Positions 3,872 to 33,087 of a DNA stretch of 43,820 nt are shown here, piece by piece. Position numbers and translations under genes: made by a program. The stretch spans positions 1 through 43,820 of the forward strand of contig CASFNR010000028.1 in the NCBI GenBank assembly GCA_949296115.1, given 5' to 3'. The notes under the pieces were generated by a model that saw nothing but the letters and a program-made list of their open reading frames with translations, ran no database searches and was not told the DNA's origin. The DNA is from an uncultured Eubacteriales bacterium. GTDB lineage: Bacteria; Bacillota; Clostridia; Oscillospirales; Oscillospiraceae. Position 1 is the first letter of the stretch, and each line of letters opens with the position of its first letter.

Positions 3872-4822
3872 TTGGATCGCATCGTCTGTATTGCCGGGCC
3901 CACTGCCTCGGGAAAAACCGCCCTGGCCGTGGAGCTGGCCAAGGAGCTGGATGGAGAAGTGGTGTCCTGCGACTCCATGCAGGTGTACAAGTACATGGAC
4001 ATCGGCACCGCCAAACCCACCGCAGAGGAGATGCAGGGCATTCCCCACCACATGCTGTCCGTGGCGGAGCCGGCGGAGGATTTTTCCGTCAGCCGCTATT
4101 GCGCAATGGCGACCCCCATTGTGGAGGACATCCTTTCCCGGGGGAAAACCCCCATCATCGCCGGCGGCACCGGTCTGTATATGGATGCCCTGATCCGGGG
4201 CAACGACTTTGCCCCCTTCCCCTCCACCGGCGTCCGGGAACGGCTGGAGGCCCAGGCAGACCGGGAAGGGATGGAGGCCATGCTGGACCGGCTCCGGTCT
4301 GTGGACCCGGACTGCGCTGCCCGGCTCCACCTGTCCGACCGGAAGCGGATCATCCGGGCGCTGGAGGTTTACCTGGAAACCGGCGAAACCATTACCGAAC
4401 ACAACCGGAGGACCCAGCAAATCCCCCCTCGGTTTTCCCCCCTCTGGCTGGGGATTGACTATGCCCAGCGTGCAGACCTGTACCGCCGGATTGACCTGCG
4501 GGTGGGGCTGATGCTGGAGCAGGGACTGATGGCGGAAATTCAAGGACTTCTGGACCGGGGGATTCCCCGAAAATGCACCGCCATGCAGGCCATCGGCTAC
4601 AAGGAATTTCTGGATGTGCTGGACGGGGCGGTTCCTCTGGAAGCAGCGGCGGACCAGGTCCGTCAGTCCTCCCGGCGCTATGCCAAACGGCAGCTGACCT
4701 GGTTCCGCCGGAACCCGGCCATCCGCTGGCTGGTGCGCAGAGGTGATGAGCCTCTATCGGAAATTCTGGGGCAGGCCCGACGGATTGTGTGTGCATTTGA
4801 CAACCCGGACATGCTAGCATAG
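3872..4822 (+). CDS. miaA: tRNA dimethylallyltransferase MiaA
   Basis: This enzyme transfers the dimethylallyl group to N6 of A37 in tRNAs that read UNN codons. The P-loop GPTASGKT is at the N terminus, followed by the DSMQVYKYMDIGTAKPT block, GGTGLYMDAL, and the C-terminal motifs MQAIGYKEF and SSRRYAKRQLTWFRR. Length (about 316 residues) is normal. No ATG suits the start: a TTG at 3851 is possible, but GGAGGG at 3859-3864 sits 7 bases before the TTG at 3872, which is chosen. It lies 25 bases after mutL and precedes hfq, a common miaA-hfq order. Confidence 0.95.
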   Translation: MDRIVCIAGPTASGKTALAVELAKELDGEVVSCDSMQVYKYMDIGTAKPTAEEMQGIPHHMLSVAEPAEDFSVSRYCAMATPIVEDILSRGKTPIIAGGTGLYMDALIRGNDFAPFPSTGVRERLEAQADREGMEAMLDRLRSVDPDCAARLHLSDRKRIIRALEVYLETGETITEHNRRTQQIPPRFSPLWLGIDYAQRADLYRRIDLRVGLMLEQGLMAEIQGLLDRGIPRKCTAMQAIGYKEFLDVLDGAVPLEAAADQVRQSSRRYAKRQLTWFRRNPAIRWLVRRGDEPLSEILGQARRIVCAFDNPDMLA

Positions 4823-4851
4823 GGACATCCTAAAAGAAAGAGGTTGTACTT

Positions 4852-5082
4852 ATGACAGAAGCATCAGCTTTGCAGGAATCCATTTTGAAGGAGGTGCGCC
4901 GGGACAAGGTACCCGTTACCCTGTTCCTGATGAACGGATTCCAGCTGCGTGGTGTAATCACAGGCTTTGACAGTTTCGTGGTGGTTCTGGTATCCGACGG
5001 AAAACAGCAGATGATTTACAAGCATGCCATCTCCACCCTTGCGCCGATGAAGCCCCTGAAGGCTGCGGCCCCCACAATTTAA
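4852..5082 (+). CDS. hfq: RNA chaperone Hfq
   Basis: This 76-residue Sm-like protein forms a hexameric ring that binds A/U-rich RNA and helps small RNAs pair with mRNAs. The Sm1 motif ([23 protein letters not shown]) and the Sm2 motif (YKHAISTL) are intact; the KHA-x-S-T signature defines the proximal U-binding pore. The C-terminal tail is short, as in other Firmicutes. The ATG is preceded by an AAGAGG-like site. It is the last gene of the mutS-CPBP-mutL-miaA-hfq group and is followed by a strong terminator hairpin that has been duplicated around a repeat element. Confidence 0.97.
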
Positions 5083-5089
5083 CAGGAAA

Positions 5090-5117
5090 CGGACGGCAGC
5101 CGATCTGGCTGCCGTCC
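5090..5117 (+). terminator. Left copy of the duplicated terminator hairpin downstream of hfq
   Basis: A 28-base stretch forms a hairpin with arms GGACGGCAG and CTGCCGTCC. It begins 7 bases after the hfq stop. An identical 28-base copy lies at 5321-5348. The left copy has lost the T-rich 3' flank expected of an intrinsic terminator; that flank (GTTCTGTTCTG) is found only after the right copy, and the pairing AAC that would extend the stem is found only before the left copy. Confidence 0.8.
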
Positions 5118-5320
5118 CAGACTGTCGAAAAACCCCTTCGGGGCTTTCCGACAGTTTTTTTGCAGTCTGCTGCATGCATAATTTGTCCCCCGATGGGGGA
5201 CAAATTCCACACTTGCAGCCTGAGAAGTATTTTCGTCCAGGTGCACGCCCCGGCCGAAAATAGATTTTGTCCCATTTGCCGCCCCAGGCGGCAAATTCTG
5301 CGAGACTTTTTTGACACGCT
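5118..5320 (+). repeat. Structured dispersed repeat, copy 1 (forward orientation), possible miniature mobile element
   Basis: This 203-base element is homologous to the reverse complement of 32881-33050. From 5' to 3' it holds a hairpin with arms ACTGTCG and CGACAGT followed by T7 (terminator-like), a GCAGTCTGCTGC segment, a perfect 11-bp hairpin at 5181-5205 (ATTTGTCCCCC), a conserved unpaired block CCACACTTGCAGCCTG, a hairpin at 5275-5297 (ATTTGCCGCC arms), and a final CTTTTTTGACA. Ends form imperfect inverted repeats: AGACTGTCGAAAAA against AGCGTGTCAAAAAA, 11 of 14 matching. It is bracketed by an exact 28-base direct repeat of the hfq terminator hairpin. No transposase is present in the window. 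Confidence 0.8.
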
Positions 5321-5348
5321 CGGACGGCAGCCGATCTGGCTGCCGTCC
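5321..5348 (+). terminator. Right copy of the duplicated hfq terminator hairpin
   Basis: This is an exact repeat of the 28 bases at 5090-5117, here followed by the T-rich GTTCTGTTCTGTTCT. Joining the left flank of the first copy with this right flank would regenerate a normal terminator with a stem extended by AAC/GTT. The ancestral hfq terminator was therefore probably split by insertion of the 5118-5320 element with duplication of the hairpin. Confidence 0.75.
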
Positions 5349-5522
5349 GTTCTGTTCTGTTCTCCACGGCTGAAATTCCATGGGGACAAAACAGATGGGA
5401 ATCTGTATTTTTCGGATTTGGCAATTCAAACATATGTATCGAATAGAACGGCTTATTCTCTTTTTGCACAGAGAATCCGGCAGAAAATCCAAATTTTTTT
5501 CAAAAAAAGATTGAAATTCTTG

Positions 5523-5551
5523 TTGACATAAGGGGCAAAATAGAGGATAAT
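5523..5551 (+). promoter_or_regulatory. Vegetative promoter of sepF
   Basis: TTGACA (5523-5528) and GATAAT (5546-5551) are separated by 17 bases, the standard sigma-A layout. The predicted transcript has a leader of about 165 bases before sepF. Confidence 0.75.
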
Positions 5552-5600
5552 GTCATGGTGGACTGTTTATCCAAGAGGATTTCAGTATATTGAACAAAAA

Positions 5601-5693
5601 ATGCGATATGCACTCCGGCGCAGGCACTGTTGTGTCCGTGAATGCCGACACAGTCTTTGGTGCCTGAGATACGCCAGGGATTTCTCTACATGA
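5601..5693 (+). other. Structured sepF leader with a possible 30-codon upstream reading frame
   Basis: The sepF leader contains a long imperfect hairpin (5621-5666; outer arms CAGGCA and TGCCTG, inner arms TGTGTC and GACACA). An ATG at 5601 opens a 30-codon frame rich in Arg and Cys that runs through the hairpin to a TGA at 5691. There is no good ribosome binding site, so translation is doubtful. The hairpin has no T-run, so it is not an intrinsic terminator. Confidence 0.35.
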
Positions 5694-5722
5694 TGTGAAG
5701 ATATACTAGGAGGAAATGCAGA

Positions 5723-32843: not shown

Positions 32844-32880
32844 CACCCGTTTCCTTCCAGAAAAGAGGAAGGAAACGGGT
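32844..32880 (+). terminator. Left copy of duplicated terminator hairpin between alarmone synthetase and galM
   Basis: Arms ACCCGTTTCCTTCC (32845-32858) and GGAAGGAAACGGGT (32867-32880) form a perfect 14-bp stem. An A7 run precedes it, so on the minus strand it is a proper terminator for galM. A second copy, 35 of 37 bases identical, lies at 33051-33087. Confidence 0.8.
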
Positions 32881-33050
32881 CAGCTTGTCAAAAAAGCCTC
32901 GCAGAGTTTGCTGCGGCAGCAGCAAATAAAGTCAAAAAACACTTTACAGGCTGCAAGTGTGGAATATGTCCCCCATGGGGGGACATATTATGCGCGCAGC
33001 AGACTGCCAAAGTTTGTCGGAAAAGCCCGAAGGGGTTTTTCGACAGTCTC
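32881..33050 (-). repeat. Structured dispersed repeat, copy 2 (reverse orientation)
   Basis: The reverse complement of this 170-base segment aligns with 5118-5320. Shared are the first hairpin (ACTGTCGAAAAACCCCTTCG), GCAGTCTGCTGC, the central hairpin, the block CCACACTTGCAGCCTG, the third hairpin and the CTTTTTTGACA end. The central stem here is AATATGTCCCC/GGGGACATATT and the third is TTTGCTGC/GCAGCAAA; both differ from copy 1 by paired changes that keep the stems. It is about 33 bases shorter, the loss lying between the central and third hairpins. It is flanked by a duplicated terminator hairpin unrelated in sequence to that at copy 1. Confidence 0.8.
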
Positions 33051-33087
33051 CACCCGTTTCCTTCCAGAAAAAAGGAGGGAAACGGGT
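33051..33087 (+). terminator. Right copy of the duplicated hairpin, next to galM
   Basis: CACCCGTTTCCTTCC with GGAGGGAAACGGGT forms the second copy, differing from 32844-32880 at two positions. It lies 8 bases beyond the galM stop on the minus strand, whose 3' end it would terminate or protect. Confidence 0.75.

Follow-up and report, generated by a model that had tools for sequence, protein, structure and literature searches.

Why does the terminator hairpin of hfq occur twice, once on either side of a 203-bp segment, and what placed the segment there? By direct comparison, we see that a 28-nt repeat is exact at 5090–5117 and 5321–5348 (spacing 231), just where a preliminary description of this DNA had placed a duplicated 28-base hairpin; on the forward strand of ‘the window’, by which we mean the whole 43.8-kb stretch of DNA analysed, this 28-mer has these two occurrences only. 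The left copy begins 7 nt past the hfq stop codon, and a moderately T-rich tail (GTTCTGTTCTGTT) stands directly after the right copy only; the segment between them (5118–5320) terminates in imperfect inverted repeats (CAGACTGTCGAAAAA / GAGCGTGTCAAAAAA). On both points the preliminary description, which had noted a tail on the right copy alone and short imperfect terminal inverted repeats, is borne out. The features of the site are as follows:

4852–5082, forward strand: hfq, the gene with the targeted terminator (76-aa open reading frame; of 38 genomes searched, our own among them, 30 have a match)
5090–5117, forward strand: first (left) copy of the hfq terminator hairpin (exact 28-nt direct repeat)
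5118–5320, forward strand: non-autonomous element (MITE) of a multicopy family, A end first; 5321 possibly included
5118–5132, forward strand: A-end terminal inverted repeat CAGACTGTCGAAAAA, like the IS1182 end downstream of the transposase
5307–5321, reverse strand: B-end terminal inverted repeat GAGCGTGTCAAAAAA (minus-strand reading), like the IS1182 end upstream of the transposase
5321–5348, forward strand: second (right) hairpin copy, with the T-rich tail after it; target duplication 5322–5348

Base 5321 can be assigned either to the element or to the right hairpin copy; with the ends of the other copies as anchors, a target duplication of 27 bp (5091–5117 and 5322–5348) is the best reading. 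The inferred empty site would have a stem of 15, a loop of 3 and a dyad offset of 0, with 3 bp of stem lying beyond the duplication on each side. At 203 bp the element is too short to hold a transposase of its own, the open reading frames that cross it being mechanical; short and multicopy, with terminal inverted repeats, a target duplication and no transposase gene, it has the make-up of a MITE.

The same locus was compared between genomes using 23 of the 30 hfq loci, our own and those of 22 same-genus relatives (a 23rd, G008, has no hfq match and hence falls outside the comparison). In all 22 relatives one or more hairpins begin no further than 60 nt from the hfq stop codon, the MITE is absent from the 330 nt searched beyond hfq, and an exact 14-mer test finds no repeat of the post-hfq hairpin; one locus, L270, has an unrelated repeat further downstream. 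In G020 the stretch downstream of hfq is recognisably shared by eye, and we therefore take the site to be orthologous there. The preliminary description had proposed looking for a single hairpin at orthologous sites that lack the element, and an element-free hfq locus whose hairpin is not repeated, by the 14-mer test, is what all 22 relatives present.

Copies of the element and their flanking hairpins

The element stretch has 37 matches in its own genome, of which 22 (L001–L022) were taken as copies, the remainder being fragments or secondary matches. One of these copies also lies in the window:

32844–32880, forward strand: left hairpin duplication of the second copy, 37 bp, imperfect (flank comparison)
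32881–33050, reverse strand: second window copy of the element (L022), internally shortened, 170 bp (genome search with the element)
33051–33087, forward strand: right hairpin duplication of the second copy (flank comparison)

Matches were found in 16 of the 60 genomes searched, own genome included, and 15 of the 16 belong to the genus; G018, G023 and G036 have one short match each, and G042, from outside the genus, a partial one only (query 105–193). Together with 60 near-full-length copies from relatives, chosen among the matches listed without looking at their flanks, the 22 own-genome copies give 82 measured copies; four of these (L019, L020, L021 and L128), with an end that was not aligned, were dropped from the anchored analysis, leaving 78, of which 68 are 199–204 bp long. 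L013, L015 and L018 have in common an extra stretch of ~46 bp in one internal stem (around 1501–1750), and L034 (~1501–1590) is a much shortened derivative that keeps both element ends and has a hairpin seen on the left only.

In 67 of the 82 copies (21 of the 22 from the own genome), the flanks repeat each other with a score beyond the maximum, 13.5, of 2000 mismatched pairs made from the flanks of different copies; in the own genome a different hairpin is found at nearly every site, mostly on both sides. With so many copies above the control maximum, and with different hairpins at different sites, these flank repeats are not chance. When anchored on the element ends, 62 of the 78 copies have a direct repeat, and 60 of these 62 are hairpins, in agreement with the earlier expectation that other copies would also be flanked by duplicated hairpins. 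Random windows of the same loci are themselves rich in hairpins (111 of 310), such that centring is the stronger evidence: dyad axis and repeat centre are no more than 1 nt apart in 54 of the 60 MITE hairpin repeats, against 12 centred hairpins in the 310 random windows. The repeats are 16–38 bp long (median 27, most of them 20–35 bp) and their length correlates with that of the stem-loop (rho 0.62); for the 18 own-genome copies alone rho is 0.35, which is not significant.

The remaining copies are a mixture. No flank repeat above the control maximum is seen in 15 of the 82, and 16 of the 78 lack an anchored repeat; among the 16, L008 and L152 are hairpin pairs whose loops have changed or that differ by an indel, and L124, L138, L178 and L179 have repeats of 9–10 bp. 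Several copies, such as L139, L140 and L166, show no repeat. In L138 the 10-bp repeat, which is below the score threshold, occupies precisely the middle of a longer hairpin, the stem of which continues for another 10 nt on each side.

T- or A-tracts adjoin 57 of the 60 MITE sites (control 417 of 1200), and the junction bases are A-rich, becoming G+C-rich from ~4 nt inside, the composition to be expected where the stem of a terminator begins. Taken together, the flanks and the empty hfq sites support the original proposal of a non-autonomous element whose target is a terminator hairpin and whose insertion duplicates the whole of it. As a side observation, the terminator tail is on the B-end side at 35 of the 60 sites, on the A-end side at 18 and undecided at 7, a weak bias.

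The interior of the element folds into a series of hairpins:

5122–5154, forward strand: internal hairpin 1, overlapping the A-end repeat (helix 1 of the covariation analysis)
5180–5206, forward strand: internal hairpin with a strongly covarying stem (helix 3; both-side changes in 8 of 10 pairs)
5228–5262, forward strand: internal hairpin with a covarying stem (helix 4; both-side changes in 5 of 12 pairs)
5274–5296, forward strand: internal hairpin ATTTGCCGCC/GGCGGCAAAT (from folding; outside the covariation count)

In the covariation alignment, which holds 42 of the 74 listed copies, the four MITE stems have 97.7% standard pairs, and changes on both sides of a pair occur in 94 cells, compared with 26.5 in shuffles (none of 500 reaching 94) and 5–30 in slid controls. 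Kinship among sequences can inflate such counts; the slid controls preserve that relatedness, and the excess over them argues that some of the structure is probably being kept, whether through selection or because imperfect palindromes undergo templated correction. The window copy folds better than shuffles on both strands (z −7.0 and −9.2), such that folding favours neither strand for a possible RNA; the covarying multi-hairpin core may have a function as a structured RNA or DNA. Across 4700–5700, Rfam returns no family above threshold and two sub-threshold matches only.

IS1182 transposons with similar ends

A search for IS1182 transposases revealed full-length elements in the same genus, three of which (L093, L094 and L095) have MITE-like ends. 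L095, an element of 1.5–1.6 kb, is flanked on both sides by an exact 25-bp hairpin; L093, also within 1.5–1.6 kb, likewise has a 25-bp hairpin on both sides, matching at 24 of 25 positions, and L094 a decayed flanking pair. The transposase of L095 belongs to the IS1182 family (NF033551, 388.6 bits against a cut-off of 270) and contains DUF772 and DDE_Tnp_1 domains. Scanning 84,980 species genomes with this protein gave 207 loci, the best 80 of which were kept; 71 of the 80, with most of the gene covered, were analysed (the other 9 are partial), and 56 of the 71 could be scored, 11 running into contig ends and 4 having no recognisable end. Two loci of the scan coincide with elements named above, L181 with L095 and L187 with L094.

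Among these best 80 of 207 loci, a direct repeat found without recourse to an end motif exceeds the control maximum (16.5, control of 1500) in 41 of the 67 that have enough flank, nearly always abutting a CAG..TGT end. Once anchored, 39 of the 56 scored copies (best 80 of 207 loci) have a repeat, exact in 35; all 39 are hairpins and 38 are centred to within 1 nt, the controls giving 48 hairpins and 5 centred hairpins in 195. In the same best 80 of 207, the repeats span 19–64 bp (median 29) and their length follows that of the stem-loop (rho 0.80); in L189 a 64-bp palindrome is duplicated exactly. No significant repeat is seen in the other 17 of the 56 (best 80 of 207 loci), and among the MITE and IS copies without a significant repeat, L008, L152, L187, L216 and L246 are decayed or mis-anchored. 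T- or A-tracts adjoin 34 of the 39 IS sites (best 80 of 207 loci; control 364 of 780). The stem continues for 0–5 nt outside the repeat at 48 of the 60 MITE sites and at 31 of the 39 IS sites (best 80 of 207 loci), and for ~8–11 nt in L003, L013, L138 and L241; in L241 and L003 the repeat junctions thus lie inside a longer stem and are still centred. On these alignments, autonomous IS1182 copies also duplicate whole hairpins.

Chakrabartyella piscis offers a comparison within one genome, its complete chromosome (CP092441.1) carrying duplications of 20, 22, 22, 24, 24, 25, 31 and 35 bp at the eight IS copies listed, which are 0.968–1.000 identical to L237; the length correlation within these listed copies (rho 0.67, p 0.066, n = 8) is not significant. 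Such figures bear on a rival account, in which the transposase makes a fixed or loose stagger of 20–40 bp and prefers terminators, the hairpins merely being of that size. Most MITE duplications, at 20–35 bp, would suit this account, as would the T- or A-tracts at most targets; we nevertheless think it improbable, since closely similar copies in one genome yield 20–35 bp, since the IS copies (best 80 of 207 loci) range from 19 to 64 bp with a rho of 0.80 and dyad centring in 38 of 39, and since the 10-bp duplication of L138 is centred in a longer stem.

The MITE ends can be aligned with those of the IS elements in two ways. Matching A to the IS end that lies downstream of the transposase, and B to the one upstream of it, fits better in 32 of 39 elements than the opposite pairing does (6 fit worse and 1 ties; best 80 of 207 loci), the mean identity over 20 nt being 14.0 for B/upstream and 15.7 for A/downstream, compared with 14.9 and 12.3 when swapped and 5.8 for random 20-mers. 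The IS ends were located with a motif for this comparison; at positions 16–20, which lie outside it, the fit is 202 against 119 swapped, of 390 (best 80 of 207 loci). Judged by these alignments, the ends of the MITE match those of the IS1182 element, and an IS1182-family transposon with matching ends is the likely mover of the MITE. The own assembly, 89.6% complete, yielded no related transposase, apart from one weak partial IS1182-type match, and the IS copies of the MITE-rich same-genus relatives are decayed (one TAG in G002, three TGA in G013, fragments in G001); G036 has an intact IS1182 copy, yet one short element match only. With no intact related transposase in the own or MITE-rich genomes, it is from the ends that we infer mobilisation in trans.

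Beyond these genomes, 23 phage records were found, and of the 15 listed we examined four; three of the four phage-borne copies, in Streptococcus phages, have hairpin duplications of 18, 22 and 26 bp, and one phage-borne copy is annotated IS1562. Among plasmids (1784 records found, 9 of the 50 listed examined), one of the nine loci, L320 in Acinetobacter, has a 27-bp hairpin duplication, and L322 (ISCfr1), L323 (ISPsp5) and five others have no direct repeat above background. The ninth, L319 in Enterococcus faecium, has CAG ends and a hairpin on one side only, with no hairpin duplication, which could reflect deletion, recombination or replacement. Hairpin duplication is therefore not uniform across the wider IS1182 family. 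In a transposase tree of 50 sequences (36 duplicators and 14 without; L216, L254 and L320 were omitted for having too many stops), the duplicators are clustered, with 6 changes against 12.4 in shuffles; they do not form one clade, and the outer part of the tree is unsure owing to long branches.

The occurrence of duplications in several genomes, in the complete chromosome of C. piscis and in phage records also speaks to the notion that chance or misassembly set two similar terminators beside an unrelated repeat. The assembly is indeed a draft, of 85 contigs; saying this, most repeats score 20–40, against control maxima of 13.5 (2000) and 16.5 (1500), and we regard such an origin as extremely improbable.

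Mechanism and relation to known systems

What the sequence shows is a dispersed repeat that has at most sites a hairpin of the site's own, duplicated whole, to a length that tracks the target hairpin, and transposons of relatives, with similar ends, that behave alike. Most DDE transposases make target duplications of nearly constant length, a property of the enzyme; here, the pattern suggests an enzyme that picks its target by folded shape and not by sequence. Because the repeat is symmetric about the target dyad and of hairpin length, we propose a junction-based mechanism, the simplest form being strand transfer at the base of an extruded cruciform. The two target bonds would there be near each other whatever the length of the stem, and a fixed active-site spacing would make a staggered cut as long as the hairpin; joining at the hairpin base, followed by gap repair, would then leave the whole hairpin duplicated. 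Branch migration or partial extrusion could place the junction a few nucleotides inside the stem, and the centred junctions within longer stems of L138, L241 and L003 fit partial extrusion. That the window segment is a MITE which a DDE transposase of the IS1182 family mobilises in trans, with hairpins duplicated at the cruciform base, we consider probable; for the broader statement, that a widespread group of DDE transposases and their MITEs insert at the cruciform four-way junction, such that target and not enzyme sets the duplication length, we lean towards acceptance.

An identical product would come from a transposase that acts on a hairpin in single-stranded DNA, whether on the lagging strand or in the wake of RNA polymerase. 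Centring and length dependence are equally expected of it, and the terminator-like tracts place many targets where transcription opens the duplex; sequence cannot tell it apart from a cruciform, and we hold it as a tentative and rather unlikely alternative.

Terminators would be safe sites, as the distal hairpin copy retains the T-tract; since the duplication leaves one of the two sides with a hairpin and its T-tract, an insertion could do almost no harm, and the duplication would provide a route for terminator multiplication. A duplication length that varies with the size of the folded target, if true from 19–64 bp among the IS copies that were scored (best 80 of 207 loci) down to ~10 bp in one MITE copy, means that insertions may record hairpins opened or extruded in living genomes; the sites would be natural substrates for testing cruciform-directed transposition. 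A target-set length would also explain the spread of IS1182 direct repeats, which PMC7335449, in its available portion, cites from ISfinder as 2–60 bp and calls an extreme case.

Two other kinds of element deserve comparison. Group IIC introns associate with terminator hairpins and insert without target duplication; unlike them, the window element ends in inverted repeats and has duplicated its target, and Rfam gives no intron match in 4700–5700 at E up to 1, so that the likeness to group II introns drawn in the preliminary description was a wrong match. IS200/IS605-type single-strand elements have neither terminal inverted repeats nor target duplication, and were set aside because both are present here.

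The palindrome preference of IS1182 elements and the hairpin deletion of IS1272 are already known. According to the accessible text of PMC4923244 and PMC5678879, IS1272 / TnSha1, of the IS1182 family, insert into hairpins, several of them confirmed terminators, and delete the hairpin with no duplication; whole-hairpin duplication is drawn in the IS1272 model as ‘pathway b’, what was observed being stem-loop replacement without duplication, plus some non-palindromic targets (PMC5678879, in part). A replacement of this type followed by later gain of a second hairpin has in its favour the same transposase family and the same terminator-hairpin preference (PMC4923244 and PMC5678879, same portions), and is very improbable given that the same local hairpin is on both sides at most sites, that relatives have no duplicated hairpin at hfq, and that exact duplications of 19–64 bp occur at 35 IS sites (best 80 of 207 loci); replacement as such was rejected for the window element, the hairpin being on both sides in most copies. 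If our reading is true, these are natural cases of pathway b. In the open-licence literature, as far as its available text extends, we found no account in which duplicating the whole hairpin is the rule, and no IS1182 paper in which the repeat is the whole target hairpin with its length set by the hairpin; either may stand in ISfinder or in subscription papers. Hairpin duplication is not mentioned in the available parts of PMC10969869, PMC3281130, PMC3196728 and PMC2766830, and a 2025 paper, in the part available, describes IS1182 elements as little known, with or without target duplication or deletion (PMC12056078).

Another counterpart is MITEPye1 of Paracoccus yeei, a short non-autonomous element of 159 bp, assigned by its ends to the IS1182 family, with 4-bp direct repeats and no hairpin duplication reported in the available part of its description (PMC11578231); like the window element, it is a MITE tied by its ends to that family. 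With the IS1182 family itself, the system described here shares CAG..TGT ends, a DDE transposase over the NF033551 cut-off (L095) and palindromic targets; the Clostridia copies are without an IS name in this analysis, and the window element, unlike IS1182 elements, is without a transposase. The resulting contrast would lie within one family: IS1272 / TnSha1 delete their target hairpin, whereas the window element duplicates its own.
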